The notes below the pieces were generated by a model. The model was not told the origin of the DNA. It ran no database searches and was given only the letters and a program-made list of their open reading frames with translations. The position numbers and the translations under genes are program-made. From the IMG/VR virus record IMGVR_UViG_3300007907_000056, positions 1-43,079 of that record: a stretch of 43,079 bases of DNA; one strand, written 5' to 3'. Shown piece by piece: positions 21,693-36,567 of the stretch. This DNA is from a virus. Each line of letters begins with the position of its first letter. The stretch's first letter is position 1.

Positions 21693-21905
21693 TTATCGAA
21701 TAACTTTCTTCACCAGACGCTTAGGTTTATTTAGTACGACCTGACTCTTTAATCGTGTATCTCGAATAAGTGCCCACTTAGTTTGATAATAGATGGGTTC
21801 TTTATTTTCTTTTGGTATGTTGGCAATTGTAGAAATGCACTCTTTAATCGCCCTTACCATTCGGTCAATGGATTGGATAAAATCGGTTATCGCACTAGCC
21901 GTCAC
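21693..21905 (-). CDS. Small basic hypothetical protein
   Basis: The product has 70 residues from a GTG start with GGAGG upstream, overlapping the helicase stop by 4 bp. It has an N-terminal helix (TDFIQSIDRMVRAIKECI) and a very basic C-terminus (VVLNKPKRLVKKVIR). The composition suggests nucleic acid contact, but no family is recognised. Confidence 0.65.
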   Translation of the reverse strand: MTASAITDFIQSIDRMVRAIKECISTIANIPKENKEPIYYQTKWALIRDTRLKSQVVLNKPKRLVKKVIR

Positions 21906-23278
21906 ACATACTCCTCCATTCTTGCTTTAACAGCTTCTAGTAAGGCATCTTGACCTTTCTCTTTGCCCTGCAATACGTTCAATACGTGTTGGTCGATTGT
22001 ATCCTCGGTTAAGATGTGATGAATAATGACGGTCTCATCTTGCCCCTGTCTATGCAACCTCGCATTCGCCTGTTGGTACAATTCAAGGGACCATGTAAGT
22101 CCAAACCAAACTATGATGTGACCTCCATCTTGTAAATTAAGTCCATGTCCTGCAGAAGCTGGATGCGCCAGAAGAAGTTCAATCTCTCCTGCATTCCATC
22201 TCTCTATTGATCTATCAGAGTCTATTGGAATGGCTTGCTTAAACTTTTTTAGGATTCGATCTTTATCATGCTTAAAACTGTAAAACAAAAGAACGGGTTG
22301 CCCTTGTGCAGCTTCAACGATTTCTTCTAAGGCATTTAACTTTTGGTCGTGTATTTGTTGCACGCCTGCATTCTCGTTATAGCTTGCCCCATTTGACAGC
22401 TGCAGTAACTTCTGACTTAAAACTCCAGCGGTTGATGCAACGATATCGCCTTCCATGTATTCAAGGATTCGATCACGTTCTAGTTTTTTGTAAAGCTCTC
22501 TTTCTTTCAGACTTAAATCTACGGTGACGATGTTATCGATTCGTTCAGGCATGTCTAAATGGTCTTTAGCTTTCATCGATACACAAACATCTGAGATTAA
22601 ACTATATATATTTTGTTCAGCTTCTGGTTTAGGCTCATATTTATAAACGATTCGTGCGTTATTCGGATCCGTAGAAGATGGATAAAAATAACGATTTCGA
22701 TAGTGGGTGACTGTTTTTCCTAAACGCTTTCCCTGGTCAATTAAATACACTTGACTCCATAAGTCCAACAAACTATTAGGTGCCGGTGTTCCAGTTAGTC
22801 CAACGAAACGTTTAAAGGCCGGTCGTATTTTTCGTAAGGCTTTAAACCGATTCGATTTAGGGCTCTTAAAACTTGAAAGCTCGTCCACTACCAACATGTC
22901 AAACGGCATTGGTTTGCCTTCATAATGATTCACTAACCATTCCACATTCTCACGGTTGATCACGTAAATGTCTGCATCTTTTTGCAAGGCTTGCCTGCGC
23001 TTTCTCTCGTCACCCAACACTTTGGATATACGAAGATGTTTCGTATGCTCCCACTTAAAAACCTCTCTGCTCCACGTATCTTCTGCTACTCGTTTTGGTG
23101 CGATTACCAACACTTTAGTAATCTCTAAGCTGTTATATATAAGCTGTTCAACAGCGGTCAATGTGGAAACTGTTTTTCCAAGCTAAAGACCCATATCTAA
23201 AAACAAGCCGTATGAGTCATTCTTTAAAATCTGCTCAATTGCGAAAGATTGATAAGTATGCGGTTTGAAATTAACCAT
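21902..23278 (-). pseudogene. SNF2-family DEAD/DEAH helicase interrupted by an amber codon in Walker A
   Basis: Read through, the gene has 458 residues from ATG at 23276-23278 behind GGAGGTGATG. Motif I reads LDMGL-stop-LGKT, with TAG at 23183-23185. The expected GGT CTT GGA AAA ACA carries six extra bases. Later motifs are intact: DELSSFK (motif II), GLTGTPAPN (III), SAGHGLNLQ (V) and QANARLHRQGQDE (VI). Phage SNF2-type helicases normally follow a VRR-NUC gene, as here, and act in replication or recombination. A restart at TTG 23161 would lack Walker A. Possible causes are a real mutation, a scar of endonuclease activity next door, or a sequencing error. Confidence 0.85.
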
Positions 23279-23726
23279 GGTTGACATCACCTCCATATCT
23301 TGCATCATGTAATCTATGCCAGTTCAAATGCTCTTTTTGTGATTTAAATACCATTAAATTATCAGGGTGGTTATTTCTCGCATTATTATCTATATGGTGG
23401 ACCACTTCCCCTGGAAGTAAGGCTCTCCCTAACTTTTCTTCCATTACCATTCGGTGAACGTGTCTACCAAACTTCTTTGCATAGGTGCGTCCATTATTCG
23501 TACATTTTTTCTCTAGCTGCTTATTTCTAATTTTCTCCCTTTCAGTTAAAGTGAGTCCGCCTTTTTGATTCACTCTTTTATCTAGATTGTCGATACCCAT
23601 TTGTTTAACCCTACAATCCTTGCTGCAAAAAGATCTTGACCCTTTCTTTTTACCAGGATATCTTTCAAAGGTCGTTCCGCAATTAAAGCAAGTGGATTGA
23701 CGATCGTACTGTCTAGGTCTGCCCAA
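23271..23726 (-). CDS. HNH endonuclease between the VRR-NUC and helicase genes
   Basis: The product has 151 residues, with a TTG start overlapping the end of the VRR-NUC gene. An N-terminal zinc finger (CFNCGTTFERY...FCSKDC) and a C-terminal HNH core (VHRMVMEEKLGRALLPGEVV then HHIDNNARNNHPDNLMVF) are intact. The last codons (YGGDVNHG) encode the ribosome binding site and start codon of the helicase. The invader therefore sits exactly at a gene boundary and supplies the downstream start. Confidence 0.9.
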   Translation of the reverse strand: MGRPRQYDRQSTCFNCGTTFERYPGKKKGSRSFCSKDCRVKQMGIDNLDKRVNQKGGLTLTEREKIRNKQLEKKCTNNGRTYAKKFGRHVHRMVMEEKLGRALLPGEVVHHIDNNARNNHPDNLMVFKSQKEHLNWHRLHDARYGGDVNHG

Positions 23727-24009
23727 GGTTATCCCTCACCTCTCTATTAATCAATTCGTCTACTTGTTCTTTACTATCAACAACGTACACTGGATGCCCT
23801 AGTTTTAAAAACTCTCGATGGCATTTAGATTGCAAAGGTCTTGTCTTCTCACCAGGTGCTTTTACTTCTACGAAAAAATGTTTCCCTCCAGTAAGTAAAC
23901 ATAGGCGATCAGGTACACCTGATTTTCCAGGAGACACGAACTTTAAACACACCCCACCATTTTCCTCAATGTTCGTTTTTAGATACTTTTCAACATCTCT
24001 TTCTCTCAT
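23713..24009 (-). CDS. VRR-NUC domain nuclease
   Basis: The product has 98 residues: MRERDVEKYLKTNIEENGG, then KFVSPGKSGVPDRLCLLTGG, then HFFVEVKAPGEKTRPLQSKC. This is the stand-alone VRR-NUC (PD-(D/E)xK) fold with the catalytic D of VPDR and the E-x-K motif. These phage nucleases are usually next to an SNF2-type helicase and a VapE-like protein, as here. They act in replication or recombination. Confidence 0.92.
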   Translation of the reverse strand: MRERDVEKYLKTNIEENGGVCLKFVSPGKSGVPDRLCLLTGGKHFFVEVKAPGEKTRPLQSKCHREFLKLGHPVYVVDSKEQVDELINREVRDNLGQT

Positions 24010-24323
24010 GTCATAAAAACACCTTCCATATTTTAGGCGTGGGCGTGTGGGCGTAAAAACATAGCTTTTAACATATATACTGTATTAGGCGTATTAGGCG
24101 TAATGTGTACCTATTATCACTCCCTATATTAAATATAAGTTTTATTCTATTATTTTTGTCTTTACGCCCACACTAAGGCTTTACCCCTTACCGTTCTAAG
24201 TGTTGAGGTGTGGGCGCAAGGTGTGGGCGTAATCAAAATGACGACCACAACGCCCACACTAGTAAAAATTACCAATTTTATTACGCCCACACCTAGGACC
24301 GTTACGCCCACACCTGTTTTTGA
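24010..24323. other. Candidate replication origin with iterons and an AT-rich block
   Basis: This 314 bp gap has no gene. The 12 bp motif GTGTGGGCGTAA occurs seven times with at most two changes. Plus copies start at 24045, 24208 and 24221, and minus copies at 24162, 24248, 24281 and 24302. Weaker GGCGT copies are near 24039, 24084 and 24093. An AT-rich stretch from 24061 to 24160 lies between copy clusters and may be the unwinding element. The site adjoins the primase/helicase gene. This is the layout of an iteron origin. Confidence 0.75.
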
Positions 24324-26765
24324 CTAAATTAGGTCTTCTTCACGTATATAAGCTCGTTGCACACCGTACAATTTTCCGAACCTTAGGGTCCCCTTTTGGT
24401 TCATATCGTTCGGTTTCCAGCCATCCATGTTTCTTAGAATATCATTTACTTCCCGGCGATCCATTGGAGAAAAACGTTTGGCGTCATTTCCTAAACACTC
24501 ACACCACACCTCTAATGCACACACACGTTCACGTATAATAGAACCTTCACCTTCACCGAAATCATCCGTTAAAAACATTCTACGTTCAGCTAGGTCCTTC
24601 TCTTCCCAGTCTTCAGGTAATTTACGTTCAAGGTATTCCTGCACCAAACCTGCCCATGGCGATTCCTCCGTATGCGCTTCTTGAATTACCCTCATTTGCG
24701 CTTCTAAACGGTCTTCTAAAAACAGTTCTTCCCCATCTTTAAATACCTGTTTCGCTTCTGCCCATAACTGCTCGATACCATCGTCAGATAAACTGGACCA
24801 ACGATGTTTTCTATTTTCGATATTCACTGTAATCGGCCAAAATCGACGACCACCAGTCTTATCCTTTAAAAAGTTCGGGTCATTCGTCGTTCCGAAAAAC
24901 ACACACTGGCGTGGAAAGTCTTCTGTATGACGACCATAGGCAACACGGAACCGGTCTTCTCGTTTACTAATGAATTGTTTAATCGATTCAACATCAGCTT
25001 TACGAGTAGCAGACAATTCACCCATTTCGATAATCCAAGCACCTTGCAAGGCTTCAAACGCTTCTTTTCCGTGGACAGAAGTAAGGGAATCACTAAACCA
25101 TTCACGTCCCATGCGGTCAAGAATCATCGATTTACCAATCCCTTGTGGACCGTAAAGCGTAACCATATAATCAAATTTAATGCCTGGAACGTAAACACGG
25201 GCAACAGCTGCCGCAAAGGCTTTTCGTGTAATGGCACGATTTAGTTCGGTGTCTTCTGCACCTAAGTAGTCAATGAATAAAGTCTCAAGGCGGGGAACAC
25301 CATCCCACACTAAAGGTTCTAGATAATCGCGAACGGGATGGAATTTGTGCTTTTCACTGATTACCTTTACGGCATCTTCGGTCTTACTTCGGTTATACAT
25401 TTTATAAACACGTTCCATGTAATCTCTTAATCCGGCATCATCACCGTCAGTCCAATTCTCTTTTTTCGTCACTTTGCGCCAAGGCATATTGCCCATGACC
25501 ATCAATCGATTACTGAAAGAATTGGTGGCAATTTTCCCTTTTAATAGAAGATCGTTTTCAAGCACCAGGACGATGTTAGGTACAGTAACTTCAACATCGC
25601 CTTGTTTGTCTGCAGTCAATCGATGAGTCCAACGTAAATCGATATTCTCCGTTTCAATCTCATCGAATTCCTCAAATGCACTTTCCATCCGTTCACGTGC
25701 GGCAGCCTCTTTGACACCTGGGTCATTTTGAGCGAACTCACGCATTGCGGAATAGCTTGGTCGTTTATTAATAGGAGTTTTTTCGGTAACATCCCCGTCC
25801 TGTGCCCCAAACAAATGAAGGCGGACAAGGTCGAAGGCATTTACGAGTTGATTACTTGTTGGATCCGTACCGTGATGCGAGTAAGCGAACTTACCATCTT
25901 CGTAGAGTATCAATCCACCTGCAGTAGAACCTTCTGTATAGGTGTATCGGGAATCTTGAAACTTCTCATACCTTCCTGGTAGAAAGTTCTCAATCGCTTC
26001 TTCGATGGTATATGTTCGGCAGAAGGCACCAACGAGACCAGCTTTTGAATGTGGGTCCCCTTGCTTATCTGCAAGCTTTTTATGTTCGAGTTGCTGCCTA
26101 GACGATGACGGCCATTCTAGTGGATCGCGCCAATCAACATACAAGGATAAAATATCAGCAGGATCCAACCAAGGTGCATCATGGTAATGGAAGACATATT
26201 CCGCATCAGCAGAAGTTGAAGGCCAGTACATTAATCGATGTGGTTGATAGCTTGTATCATCGAAGTAATCAATACCGATTTGTTCAGCTACTTTTTTTCC
26301 GATAGCGACATACTCTTCAGATGTCACGGGTCGAGTAAAGGGAACGATGAACCTAAGACGTGGCAAACCTTCTTTATGCTTATGTGTAGAGTAAATCGCA
26401 TAAGCAGAACCGAATAACATATCGATGATATCTGCCATGCCTTCTTCTCCGTAGTCAATATCCAGTGTTAAAATACTTCGATTGAACACACTATCGGCTT
26501 TACGTCGTCCACCTTTTAACCGTCCGCCTACAAACCCACCTACATCTTTAATGGAGTCTTGTTGGCTTTTAGGATAACTTCTGTATTCGGATTCTGATTC
26601 TTTTGTCCGGACCGTTGTACGCAACTTTTCCAAGAACTCTGACCACGTCAGTTCTGCGTTGCTCCATTTAACCGACGTTCGGCTGCTTGCGGTTGCAATA
26701 CTGACAGCACCGTCAAAGGTTAGTTTGGGTATAGGTTTTTCTTTTGTTACGGTCACCGCAATCAA
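24324..26765 (-). CDS. VapE-type primase/helicase
   Basis: The product has 813 residues. The N-terminal part (about 95-230) has a primase-like LTLDIDYGEEG and HKHKEGLPRLRFIVPF pattern. The C-terminal part is the virulence-associated E-type ATPase: Walker A GPQGIGKS near residue 540, then WIIEMGELSATRKADVE, then FFGTTNDPNFLKDKTGGRRF. These proteins open the origin and prime phage replication. The start overlaps the MazG-like gene by 4 bp. Its 3' end borders the iteron region. Confidence 0.9.
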   Translation of the reverse strand: MIAVTVTKEKPIPKLTFDGAVSIATASSRTSVKWSNAELTWSEFLEKLRTTVRTKESESEYRSYPKSQQDSIKDVGGFVGGRLKGGRRKADSVFNRSILTLDIDYGEEGMADIIDMLFGSAYAIYSTHKHKEGLPRLRFIVPFTRPVTSEEYVAIGKKVAEQIGIDYFDDTSYQPHRLMYWPSTSADAEYVFHYHDAPWLDPADILSLYVDWRDPLEWPSSSRQQLEHKKLADKQGDPHSKAGLVGAFCRTYTIEEAIENFLPGRYEKFQDSRYTYTEGSTAGGLILYEDGKFAYSHHGTDPTSNQLVNAFDLVRLHLFGAQDGDVTEKTPINKRPSYSAMREFAQNDPGVKEAAARERMESAFEEFDEIETENIDLRWTHRLTADKQGDVEVTVPNIVLVLENDLLLKGKIATNSFSNRLMVMGNMPWRKVTKKENWTDGDDAGLRDYMERVYKMYNRSKTEDAVKVISEKHKFHPVRDYLEPLVWDGVPRLETLFIDYLGAEDTELNRAITRKAFAAAVARVYVPGIKFDYMVTLYGPQGIGKSMILDRMGREWFSDSLTSVHGKEAFEALQGAWIIEMGELSATRKADVESIKQFISKREDRFRVAYGRHTEDFPRQCVFFGTTNDPNFLKDKTGGRRFWPITVNIENRKHRWSSLSDDGIEQLWAEAKQVFKDGEELFLEDRLEAQMRVIQEAHTEESPWAGLVQEYLERKLPEDWEEKDLAERRMFLTDDFGEGEGSIIRERVCALEVWCECLGNDAKRFSPMDRREVNDILRNMDGWKPNDMNQKGTLRFGKLYGVQRAYIREEDLI

Positions 26766-27055
26766 TCCTTCCTGTTCGTGCTCGCTTCCATTTCCTCTAA
26801 TACTTGTTCAGCAAATGCTGCGTAAACGGCAGAGGCGTGTATGCATTCCATATACAAGTTTTGGGCGTCTGTAGGCTTTCCCCAACCTTTAGCCGAGAGT
26901 ATTGCTTGTGCCACTTCACCTGTCTCCTCTGATGCGATAACATGCCATACCTCATGTGGATGTCGCTGTACACCCCACTTCGCGTTTTGTCTCAAACGTT
27001 CAGCTAATATAGCAGCGTTTACTATTCTCATAAGTTCAGTTGGCGTCATCTCCAC
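26762..27055 (-). CDS. MazG-like nucleotide pyrophosphohydrolase
   Basis: The product has 97 residues with RLRQNAKWGVQRHPHEVWH and then ASEETGEVAQAILS, the E-E-x-x-E type metal-binding helix of the all-alpha NTP pyrophosphatase superfamily. It may sanitise nucleotide pools during replication. Coupled overlaps join it to the upstream HTH gene and the downstream primase/helicase gene. Confidence 0.75.
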   Translation of the reverse strand: MEMTPTELMRIVNAAILAERLRQNAKWGVQRHPHEVWHVIASEETGEVAQAILSAKGWGKPTDAQNLYMECIHASAVYAAFAEQVLEEMEASTNRKD

Positions 27056-27876
27056 ACAAATTCACCTACTTCCGACTTTTCCGAAACTGAATCCAAACAA
27101 TCTATAAATCTTATTTGTTGTTTTTTCGCCAATTGCTTTTCCTCGCTTTTCTTGTTGTATTTTGAATAGGTTTGGATTCCATTCACTTTCTTCCAATTTT
27201 GGAGAGTGGCAAGAACGACACCTATTTCAGACGCGATTTCCTTATCACTAATTCCCCTGTTTTTAAAACTTTCATACGCATCTTTTGTAATGTAGACCTT
27301 CTTTGGTCTAGCCATAACATACGCGACATCGTTTTCAGCTTGCCAACTCATAAGGGTCTTCACATTACAGCCTTGTCGCTTTGCTACTTGTCCATTCGTT
27401 AGCCCTTCACCGCGCATGGAAAGATACGTCACTTCATCCAGTTTCAAACGGGTGCCTTTTTTCGCACCTCTAGGTTTGAGTTCCCTTTTTGTTTTGTGTC
27501 TAGCTTTCCAACGAGTAAGAGTATGCGTACAAACATCAAGCAAGATAGCAATCTCTTTATCTAATAAACCGTTTGCGACATGACCGTGATATTGTTCAAC
27601 AGTAAGTAGTTGGTCGATACGGTTTGAATTAGGTTCTTCTTCATCCGGTTTTGAAGGTCGCCCTCGCTTCCCTTTAGGTACTAATTCGTTTCCAATTGCA
27701 CGTATTTGAGTGTAGATCGGGCAACTCTTACATATCCCATCTTGGGTTTTATGCGTGCCTTGCTTTAGTGTGCAAGGTTCACAATGTTTTTCTTCTAAAT
27801 CACCGAGTTTGTAAACGAGTGCCTGACGATGTTGACGTTCGGCAATACGATTTTGTTTTTCAATTGCTTTGGTCAT
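27046..27876 (-). CDS. Zinc-finger protein with three tandem HTH units
   Basis: The product is about 276 residues from ATG at 27874-27876, with AGGTGATT upstream. An N-terminal CxxC...CxxC zinc motif (CEPCTLKQGTHKTQDGICKS) resembles the Gram-positive phage zinc-finger proteins. Three similar HTH-like units follow: LLDKEIAILLDVCTHTLTRW, LTNGQVAKRQGCNVKTLMSW and ISDKEIASEIGVVLATLQNW. It therefore probably binds repeated DNA. The nearby origin iterons are a possible target, by inference only. Confidence 0.75.
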   Translation of the reverse strand: MTKAIEKQNRIAERQHRQALVYKLGDLEEKHCEPCTLKQGTHKTQDGICKSCPIYTQIRAIGNELVPKGKRGRPSKPDEEEPNSNRIDQLLTVEQYHGHVANGLLDKEIAILLDVCTHTLTRWKARHKTKRELKPRGAKKGTRLKLDEVTYLSMRGEGLTNGQVAKRQGCNVKTLMSWQAENDVAYVMARPKKVYITKDAYESFKNRGISDKEIASEIGVVLATLQNWKKVNGIQTYSKYNKKSEEKQLAKKQQIRFIDCLDSVSEKSEVGEFVWR

Positions 27877-28462
27877 TGGAATCACCTGTCGGAAATGTTA
27901 TGAATGATTCAGCTGGATAGAAGCCTGCGAGTTCACCATTGTTATATTCATTTTTAGCGACTATAGTAGCAGTGGTATATACAGATGAATAATCATTTAT
28001 TAGACGAACATCACCTTCTCTAAACTCCCCAACCTCACGCCCCAACTCTGCCCAAAATGCTTCTTCATTGGTTGCGTGTGTTACTCCGTTAAAACATAAA
28101 CTTAAGCCGTCCACAATTCTAAAATCATTGAAATCACTAGCTACATTGCGTTGGTCATGAAGTTTTTCAATTTGAGCAAATTTCTTTCCTGTTGAGAATT
28201 CTTCCCCATCTAACCTAACAATCCAATCACCTTCTTTTGGTTTCGGTTGCTCAATTTCATAGCCAGTTAATAACGCTTTTGCCATATAGAAAGGCGAGAT
28301 GTCATTTAGGCATTCGTGGTTATCGGCGTAACTGTCGTCCCCTTCGTTTGCTTCACTTTTCATGAAGTATTGATAATCAATTAAATCTTGGTCTGTTTCG
28401 TTATATTTAACTTTCCGTTCCTCTATCGCTTTCGCCTGTTCTGCTGTAATAGTAACTTTCAT
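27860..28462 (-). CDS. Hypothetical early protein
   Basis: The product is about 200 residues from an ATG with AAAGGA upstream. The start is MKVTITAEQAKAIEERKVK. The rest is acidic and mixed, with KEGDWIVRLDGEEFSTGKKF and a YPAESFITF end. No family is recognised with confidence. It overlaps the zinc-finger gene by 17 bp. It probably has an early accessory role. Confidence 0.65.
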   Translation of the reverse strand: MKVTITAEQAKAIEERKVKYNETDQDLIDYQYFMKSEANEGDDSYADNHECLNDISPFYMAKALLTGYEIEQPKPKEGDWIVRLDGEEFSTGKKFAQIEKLHDQRNVASDFNDFRIVDGLSLCFNGVTHATNEEAFWAELGREVGEFREGDVRLINDYSSVYTTATIVAKNEYNNGELAGFYPAESFITFPTGDSNDQSN

Positions 28463-33910: not shown

Positions 33911-35866
33911 TCAGTCCTTTTTATAGAAGTTAGTTTCAAAACCGTCGGCAGCAAGTGGTAGACCTGGCGCCCATTTAACAGGTTCACCCATCAAATCTTC
34001 CACGATTGCAAGTGCATCTTTATGTGTTTCAGGAACTTCACACACTACTTCATCATGAACATGCATAACAATCGGATACCCAGATACTTCGAGACGTTTC
34101 ATGCTTTCAGCCAAGATGTCACGAGCAATTGCCTGAACGATGTTCTCTACCCATTTCCCACCGTAAGATTCTACTCGATTCCATTTGTTTCGTTCGTCGA
34201 GTCCGAAATGGGCAACTGCGTCTCTTCCGAATTTATTTTCAATAATATGTGGCTTTGCATAGGCAAGACTGCGACCACTTGGCAGGTCAATCATTAGGAA
34301 ACCACGGTCACGTCGGAAAGTTACTCCGTGTGTTTTAACGACCGTTTTGTCTCGAACTGCTTCAATGGCAGCTGCGTCACATGCGTACCAAAATTTCACG
34401 ATGTTCGGGTTCGCATCACGCCAAGCAGTGACTAATGGCTGGAGTTCTTTCTCTGTGAGACCCATCTCAAGTGCACCCATGCTTTTTAATGCACCAGGTC
34501 CACCTTGATAGCCAAGTGCTAATTCTGCTACCTTGCCCTTTTGTCTAAGGTCAGAGCCTTTGCCAATTTCTTCGATAGGGACTTTAAACATTTGACTAGC
34601 AGAAGCTTCATAGATTTTTCCGTGAGTTTGGAAAACATGCAGTCTCCATATCTCCCCAGCGAACCAAGCAATAACGCGAGCTTCTATGGCTGAAAAGTCA
34701 GATACGATTAGTTTGTGTCCTGGTTTAGCGATGAAGCATGTCCGAACAAGTTGACTCAATATATCTTGTAAACTCTCGCTAAATATCAGTTCAATAGATT
34801 CAAAGTCTTGAGCTTTAATGAGTTCACGTGCAGCACTTATTCGAGGAAGGCTCATCTTATTTTTTGTAAGATTCTGAACTTGTACTCCGCGTCCTGCCCA
34901 TCTTCCGGTCTTGGATGCGCCGTAACATTGGAACAATCCGCGAACACGATCATCTTCTAAAATCATGCTTTGCATTTTGCCATATTTTTTAATACTACTT
35001 TTAGACAATTCTTGTCGAAGTTTCAGCACTTCGTGCACGGGTCCAGACGTGTAGTGATTTAAGTATTCCTCTACTGTTTTTTTCTGAAGGTTTGGCAGGA
35101 CCGCATCCTGTGAATGAAACCATTCGAGCAACTGTGAAGGGCTGTTCGGATTCTCAAGGTTCGTCAAGGCTCTAGCTGCTTCCATCGTCCACGCTTTTGC
35201 AAGATGATCGCCAGCAACTGCGCCTTCCATTAATTGAGCATCCAACATGACACCACGGTCATTAATACGTTGGTCAATTGCCCATAAAATTTGTTCGTGT
35301 TTAGGAACTTCAAATGCTGATATGCGCTCACGTATTGCCTGTTCGACTTCCACGTCCTTGATACAATAAGCCAAGAATTGTGACCACTTCTCAGAATCAT
35401 GATGAGGAAGATTTCTTGTTCTTCCTTCATTCGTTTTTGTCGCTTTACAAGGTTTCGAGAAGTAATTGATTAAAGCCGTCCCTGCTGTGTCTTTTTGTAA
35501 GTCCAATTTGAGCACTTCTGCAACTTGACCAAGTGCAGCTGGTAATCCAAGTCTTGTCGAATCAACCATCGTACATTTCCACTGGTAAGGATCCATTTCA
35601 AAACCGAAGTGTTTAGCAAGACATGTTCGTTCAAAGCTCGCATTGTGAGCAGTCTTCATGACACTGTCATCCGTTAAAGCTTCATATAGCTCATTGGGGG
35701 TAGAATCTAATCCAGTAGCTATATCTATAATTTTTACAGGCTCATTATCGAATGAATAAGCAAGCATTAAAATCTCAAAGCTTTCATGTTCTGCGTATCG
35801 ATAAACGCCTGTATCTCGCAAGTTAAGCTCGCAATAGGTTTCAATATCAATTGCTAAGGTTCTCAA
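33911..35866 (-). CDS. Family A DNA polymerase with 3'-5' exonuclease
   Basis: The product has 651 residues. The N-terminal exonuclease has AIDIETYCELNLRDTG, then HNASFERTCLAKHF, then AYCIKDVEVEQAI. The polymerase has motif A SDFSAIEARVIAWFAGE near residue 387, motif B KVAELALGYQGGPGALKSM near 445, and motif C HVHDEVV near 605. This is the usual polymerase of Firmicute phages with DUF2815 and DUF2800 neighbours. It copies the phage genome. Confidence 0.95.
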   Translation of the reverse strand: MRTLAIDIETYCELNLRDTGVYRYAEHESFEILMLAYSFDNEPVKIIDIATGLDSTPNELYEALTDDSVMKTAHNASFERTCLAKHFGFEMDPYQWKCTMVDSTRLGLPAALGQVAEVLKLDLQKDTAGTALINYFSKPCKATKTNEGRTRNLPHHDSEKWSQFLAYCIKDVEVEQAIRERISAFEVPKHEQILWAIDQRINDRGVMLDAQLMEGAVAGDHLAKAWTMEAARALTNLENPNSPSQLLEWFHSQDAVLPNLQKKTVEEYLNHYTSGPVHEVLKLRQELSKSSIKKYGKMQSMILEDDRVRGLFQCYGASKTGRWAGRGVQVQNLTKNKMSLPRISAARELIKAQDFESIELIFSESLQDILSQLVRTCFIAKPGHKLIVSDFSAIEARVIAWFAGEIWRLHVFQTHGKIYEASASQMFKVPIEEIGKGSDLRQKGKVAELALGYQGGPGALKSMGALEMGLTEKELQPLVTAWRDANPNIVKFWYACDAAAIEAVRDKTVVKTHGVTFRRDRGFLMIDLPSGRSLAYAKPHIIENKFGRDAVAHFGLDERNKWNRVESYGGKWVENIVQAIARDILAESMKRLEVSGYPIVMHVHDEVVCEVPETHKDALAIVEDLMGEPVKWAPGLPLAADGFETNFYKKD

Positions 35867-35922
35867 TGTTCCACCGCCTTCTTTAAAAGAAAAAGCAGGG
35901 CCAAGCAGCCCTGCTATAAGGT

Positions 35923-36567
35923 TTAAATTAAATCGTCGTCATCTGAATCCAAATCGTCAAAGTCGTCATCAGCACTTGCACGACCACCAAGGAATTCTCC
36001 ATCTGCCCATTTCTGAACGTTGTTCAATCCAGCAGCAACACCTTTGTTCCCGTTCGTATTGAATGCGTAGAAATTAACGGATACGCGTACATAGCAACCA
36101 CTGTAAAGTGCTGTTGTATCTGTTAGCTTAATTTTATTTTGATCAACGACTCCTGGTGCTGTTTTACTTGATAGATTGATAAAGTAGCTGTCAGCGTAAG
36201 CTTCGTCATCTTCACGATCTACATCACCATCACGCATTGGCGTTTTTAAGTTTGCGGGAACCTTCCCACCAAGTTTTGCTTTTCCTTCTTGTGCGGCTTG
36301 TGCAACTGCTTCTTCAATCAACTTGATTGTTTTTGTATCCGATTTTGGAATGATGATAGACATGCTGTATTTCGGTTCACCTTCACCGTTGATTGCTTTC
36401 GCTTCAAAAATGTTCACATAGCTAGCACGTACTTTACCTGTAATTACTTTTGTTCCGTCTCGTTTCATGGATGATTCCTCTTTTCGGTTTTTTAGTTTTT
36501 TGTTAGATGGTGTTCCCCAGTTTCCGGACTCATACTGGCTAACATGGTAATCAGCAATTTCGCCCAT
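35923..36567 (-). CDS. DUF2815-like ssDNA-binding protein with an N-terminal extension
   Basis: The core starts MKRDGTKVITGKVRASYVNI and contains GEPKYSMSIIIPKSDTKTI and TDTTALYSGCYVRVSVNFYA, the DUF2815 pattern. The end is very acidic (DDDFDDLDSDDDDLI), as in single-stranded DNA-binding proteins. An AGGAGG site and ATG at 36567 add 33 residues (GEIADYHVSQYESGNWGTPS) before the usual start. That piece resembles a small stand-alone phage protein, so it may be fused here. The usual ATG at 36468 has only AGAGGA. Both starts are possible. Confidence 0.82.
   Translation of the reverse strand: MGEIADYHVSQYESGNWGTPSNKKLKNRKEESSMKRDGTKVITGKVRASYVNIFEAKAINGEGEPKYSMSIIIPKSDTKTIKLIEEAVAQAAQEGKAKLGGKVPANLKTPMRDGDVDREDDEAYADSYFINLSSKTAPGVVDQNKIKLTDTTALYSGCYVRVSVNFYAFNTNGNKGVAAGLNNVQKWADGEFLGGRASADDDFDDLDSDDDDLI

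Follow-up and report, generated by a model that had tools for sequence, protein, structure and literature searches.

Known iteron-reading initiators

The C-terminal domain of SaPI Rep reads iterons that lie directly downstream of the rep gene (PMC7581432, citing Ubeda 2007). In SCCmec, the isolated C-terminal domain of Cch2 binds the putative origin, a set of direct repeats beside its gene (PMC7581432). In the PLE satellites of Vibrio cholerae, the initiator's DNA-binding domain varies in step with the origin, and its specificity for that origin has been demonstrated; swaps of the origin module are believed to be driven by a phage nuclease that mimics the specificity of the PLE initiator (PMC8263062).

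The DNA analyzed here is a 43,079-nt stretch (the window), IMG/VR virus record IMGVR_UViG_3300007907_000056. An intergenic repeat array in it is very probably the replication origin of a temperate Bacillota phage, with VapE as the phage's own initiator and the VapE C-terminal domain as the putative reader of the iterons. The host is probably of the Bacillaceae/Planococcaceae type. Three features of a SaPI-type replicon are present: i) a VapE/Rep-type AAA+ helicase as putative initiator; ii) a predicted dsDNA-binding C-terminal domain after the helicase core; and iii) iterons directly downstream of the initiator gene that flank AT-rich DNA. The SaPI Rep/PriRep system of staphylococcal pathogenicity islands (PDB entry 7pds) shares the helicase type, the C-terminal domain (an origin reader in SaPI Rep, a putative one here) and the position of the iterons. 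It differs in that here the genome is that of a tailed phage, an AEP-like primase region is fused to the N-terminus, the phage has its own PolA/SSB operon, and the iteron units are highly diversified, their binding being putative.

The other systems are alike in part. Cch2 also combines a C-terminal domain with direct repeats next to the helicase gene (PMC7581432), but the helicase belongs to another family (Primase_Cterm, like SaPI5 Rep) and the iterons are 5-nt AAGTG units. PLE RepA likewise has a DNA-binding domain that covaries with an iteron origin and is exchanged in modular fashion (PMC8263062), but it carries an N-terminal RepA_N domain, its iterons are semi-palindromic and ~30 bp long, and there is no VapE helicase. 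Staphylococcus Triavirus phages (phage 47, 3A and relatives) have an iteron array in the same place between VapE and VRR-NUC, with a different repeat unit, TGTTGCAT (L327), and a different VapE tail; the part of the phage 47 record examined carries no annotated origin. The mechanism, which the present array fits in a tailed phage, is already known, and what appears to be new in the literature searched is the phage-wide, diversified pairing of initiator and iteron.

The intergenic array

The 314-bp stretch that holds the array is exactly the gap between the VapE stop and the VRR-NUC start. The genes and the gap are as follows.

23713-24009, minus strand: VRR-NUC nuclease gene, the array's other flank and the control for covariation
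24010-24323, no strand: putative replication origin, an intergenic iteron array between the VapE and VRR-NUC genes, at the same position in relatives
24324-26765, minus strand: VapE-family primase-helicase of 813 aa, the proposed initiator (Pfam, PHROG and structure models)
24327-24536, minus strand: codons of VapE residues 744-813, winged-helix-like C-terminal domain, the proposed iteron reader, which covaries with the iteron

The gap holds seven GTGTGGGCGTAA-type repeats, three on the plus and four on the minus strand. Five are exact, one has one mismatch and one has two.

24045-24056, plus strand: iteron, exact GTGTGGGCGTAA, VRR-NUC-proximal
24057-24161, no strand: AT-rich block with a GC minimum of 0.22, candidate DNA-unwinding element
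24082-24103, no strand: short direct repeat GTATTAGGC, two copies, within the AT-rich block
24162-24173, minus strand: iteron, exact GTGTGGGCGTAA
24208-24219, plus strand: iteron with one mismatch (GTGTGGGCGCAA)
24221-24232, plus strand: iteron, exact GTGTGGGCGTAA
24248-24259, minus strand: iteron with two mismatches at the 3' end (GTGTGGGCGTTG)
24281-24292, minus strand: iteron, exact GTGTGGGCGTAA
24302-24313, minus strand: iteron, exact GTGTGGGCGTAA, VapE-proximal

An eighth core, GTGGGCG at 24039-24045, overlaps the first copy, and a degenerate partner, GTGGTCGTC, accompanies the two-mismatch copy at about 24240-24248. The AT-rich block separates the first copy from the others, its GC content falling to 0.22 at 24100-24159. 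The original prediction had described seven copies in both orientations with an AT-rich block beside the VapE gene, and the copies located here agree with it.

The motif is also as concentrated as had been proposed. Allowing up to two mismatches, 11 matches occur in the window, as against 1.71 +/- 1.23 in its dinucleotide shuffles, none of 100 of which reached 11. The four matches outside the gap are isolated and have two mismatches each; all five exact 12-mers of the 43-kb record lie inside the gap.

An Rfam search gave no match, and a promoter and terminator scan found nothing above chance. GC skew does not turn at the array; its only sign change tracks the switch of gene strand near 40.5 kb.

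Conserved place, changing repeat unit

Relatives were collected by scans with the VapE protein and comprised viral contigs and prophage-bearing genomes, plus Staphylococcus phage 47. The same motif had been expected at the same place in close relatives, and the three closest lineages do carry an identical or one-base-different motif there. The GTGTGGGCGTAA-type unit is found at this place in Domibacillus (L167) and Salimicrobium (L169 and L247), and Planococcus (L168) has GTGTAGGCG, which differs by one base.

More distant relatives have a different motif at the same place. Over all lineages the units include GTGTGGGCG, GGTTGTCGT, GGTTGCC, TGTTGCAT (the S. aureus Triavirus unit), TGTATCCA, TGTTGACA, TGTTTACA and TGTTACCA, among others, mostly of the form (T/G)GTNNNC. 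At least four copies of one GTNNNN unit are present in 128 of 178 distinct gaps versus 4.2% of dinucleotide shuffles, and at least five copies in 114 of the 178 versus 0.4%. The spacing of same-orientation tandem copies in these gaps peaks at 9 bp. Iteron 6-mers occur at 25.5 per kb within gaps versus 0.50 in the remainder of the loci, a ~50-fold higher density.

The remaining 50 of the 178 relatives fall below the four-copy threshold in the gap, mostly those with VapEs of 45% identity or less. Several of these showed no array at any point of the sequence available around VapE. In L248, L234 and L224, VapE and VRR-NUC are more than 1 kb apart; there the array lies beside VRR-NUC, far from VapE. 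The distant clade (VapE at most 45% identical) has no array in the gap, but five members (L015, L016, L030, L031 and L041) have a similar array in intergenic DNA 4-8 kb away, with units such as ATTGTTTAC, ATTGTTTC and ATGGTTTAC; therefore either the origin or vapE has moved. Measured from the VapE stop, the L030 array lies at about +4560 to +4897 and the L016 array at about -8020 to -7768.

A scan of IMG/VR for paired GTGTGGGCG returned mostly unrelated matches, several in low-complexity repeats; the replication-linked arrays among them were those of L066 and L086.

Across 114 relatives, words other than the iterons, such as AACCCT/AAGGGT and CCTAAT, exceed shuffled levels in the VapE-VRR-NUC gaps. 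CCTAAT is present in 43 of the 114 (mean 0.59 versus 0.19 in shuffles). Such recurring words are perhaps further elements of the origin.

Domains of VapE

VapE consists of an N-terminal AEP-like primase region, an AAA+ VapE helicase domain and a C-terminal domain. The protein matches Pfam VapE-like_dom (E 1.5e-81), and a PHROG DNA primase match covers residues 14-441. Among 70 sequences, D102, D104 and T127 are invariant and S126 and H128 nearly so; we take D-x-D (102-104) and S-T-H (126-128) to be the AEP motifs hDhD and sxH. On this motif evidence the N-terminal region belongs with AEP primase fusions (PrimPol-helicases), and its priming activity is putative.

The last 125 residues were modeled (AF2) as a winged-helix-like domain with a pLDDT of 86.5. 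The only strong PDB match to this model is 7pds, the C-terminal part of PriRep1 with dsDNA, annotated as 'Similar to D. nodosus vapE' (TM 0.72, VIA Z 13.3, rmsd 4.8 over 114 residues). Matches to forkhead and other winged-helix domains had E around 1 and Z around 4, too weak to be read as kinship. Profile searches match the tail to 7pds with E 1e-14 and residues 368-799 with E 3.7e-127, with 33% identity over the helicase and C-terminal part; the full-length VapE model (pLDDT 89.8) also matches 7pds over the helicase part. By these models, VapE carries a C-terminal domain of the dsDNA-binding type after its helicase core and is predicted to bind DNA through it.

Covariation of the VapE tail with the iteron

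The DNA-reading part of an iteron reader should change with the iteron. In close pairs with the same iteron, the C-terminal part of VapE is as conserved as the body. In close relatives with different iterons, divergence is specific to the last ~40-50 residues, as seen from the identities of body and C-terminal part in L249/L282 (.985/.836), L282/L264 (.982/.822), L006/L008 (.988/.918), L303/L284 (.902/.703) and L286/L291 (.852/.606). A sliding window, run on pairs that are not fully independent, peaks at residues 773-812 (t -6.8 to -9.7), with some weaker effects of either sign in other windows. For 31 sister pairs that are phylogenetically independent, tail minus body identity comes to +0.004 where the repeat is shared and -0.125 where it differs (p=0.002); the shared-repeat group in this contrast is small, six pairs. 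No covariation is seen in the 31 pairs for the N-terminus of VRR-NUC (p=0.40), which flanks the array at the opposite end and is just as near to it. This joint change of tail and repeat points to the tail as the origin-reading part and supports the view that the C-terminal domain sets iteron specificity.

Fourfold-degenerate sites of the tail are also somewhat raised when the iterons differ (p=0.03, few sites). Part of the covariation is therefore recombination of tail and array together rather than point-by-point coevolution. In the closest pairs, DNA identity is lowered from the final ~120 nt of vapE through the array and is back up at VRR-NUC; recent changes therefore seem to have moved, or altered, the two as a single cassette.

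One residue stands out. Residue 802, in the motif YG-X-Q, was first spotted by eye in the same data; ranked across all 601 columns by mutual information with the iteron core, it comes first (z 7.1, next 4.7). Leu is found mostly with GTATCC/GTTACC and Thr mostly with GTTTAC/GTTGAC/GTTAAC; where the residue is Val, the core is often GTTGC or GTGGG. The pairing is suggestive of a code, not a solved one. When mutual information was computed for single iteron positions, the top columns for positions 3, 5 and 6 mixed tail and body. A per-column test on distant pairs was unspecific, body columns scoring as high as tail columns, and was dropped as evidence.

Other readings of the array

The array might be the origin and yet be read by a protein other than VapE, the tail differing between relatives through co-transfer with the adjacent array. 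The joint drop of nucleotide identity in the closest pairs and the slightly raised fourfold sites are as such a reading would have it. It is nevertheless unlikely, given that the VRR-NUC N-terminus is equally close and unaffected, that residue 802 is related to the iteron core from one lineage to another, that the tail is homologous to the dsDNA-bound C-terminal region of PriRep1, and that arrays unlinked from vapE have similar motifs. Nor did the three-HTH protein (HTH3) have a match in the 10 relatives searched. The three-HTH protein (27046-27885), proposed alongside the primase/helicase as a binder in the original prediction, has HTH domains and is encoded near VapE. It is an extremely improbable reader: none of 10 records of iteron-bearing or related phages, including those with the same GTGTGGGCG array, has a match, in a search without a positive control on IMG/VR records that may be fragments, and the loci around VapE have none either. 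Of the two proteins proposed, VapE is favored as the putative binder.

It is also quite improbable that the repeats serve as operators, bound by a regulator of the VRR-NUC-HNH-SNF2 genes downstream, rather than as an origin. They do precede VRR-NUC, and one weak promoter-like match falls there, though no more than the shuffle mean. So many copies, facing both ways about an AT block, and the 9-bp tandems of relatives do not fit operators; the covariation is with the helicase protein's domain and not with a regulator; and some distant relatives have their arrays kilobases from VRR-NUC. The iteron-origin reading is strongly supported by the comparative evidence of position, array layout and VapE covariation, from which origin activity is inferred.

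Proposed mechanism and significance

In the model favored here, the VapE primase-helicase, encoded just upstream of the array, would act as its own initiator. Its winged-helix-like C-terminal domain would bind the iterons, each roughly 9 bp, to either side of the AT-rich block, and helicase rings would assemble there. The AT-rich DNA would then melt, the N-terminal AEP-like domain would prime, and the phage A-family polymerase and ssDNA-binding protein would elongate. Iteron and putative reader vary jointly; in the closest pairs they do so as one cassette made up of the array and the final ~40 codons of VapE.

More tentatively, the VapE/VRR-NUC phages of Bacillota may possess a common origin system. 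In it, a small winged-helix-like domain would read a short GT-NNN-N core by way of a simple code that can be deciphered (residue 802 in YG-X-Q and its neighbors), and iteron-reader cassettes would be swapped and diversified; this is conceivable, though doubtful. Pressure from satellites or defense systems perhaps drives the swapping and diversification. Such a system would give these phages a set of mutually blind origin types.

The comparison offers a sequence-based route to both initiator and origin in a replication module that is common among temperate phages and includes elements of Staphylococcus, Enterococcus, Listeria and Clostridium; the literature searched yielded no account of an origin for this VapE module. 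The dozens of matched iteron/tail pairs form a natural data set on how initiators change origin specificity, and could predict cross-replicating satellites or prophages.

Neighboring genes

A SaPI/PICI satellite is a helper-dependent element that lacks virion genes of its own; the 43-kb virus record analyzed here carries its own polymerase and recombinase genes. An HNH endonuclease gene (23271-23726, minus strand) adjoins the origin region, between VRR-NUC and SNF2. In the closest relatives the VRR-NUC and SNF2 starts are about 400 bp apart, leaving no space for an HNH gene. The SNF2-type helicase gene, upstream of the ORF at 21902-23161, has an in-frame TAG at 23183-23185 (minus strand). It falls inside the Walker A motif, which reads DMGL*LGKT; the gene may be broken, or the record may contain a sequencing error. 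At 33911-36567 (minus strand), the genes of an A-family DNA polymerase and an Enc34-type ssDNA-binding protein lie next to each other. This neighboring pair recalls the polymerase-SSB putative primases of mobile elements (title of PMC10061031).
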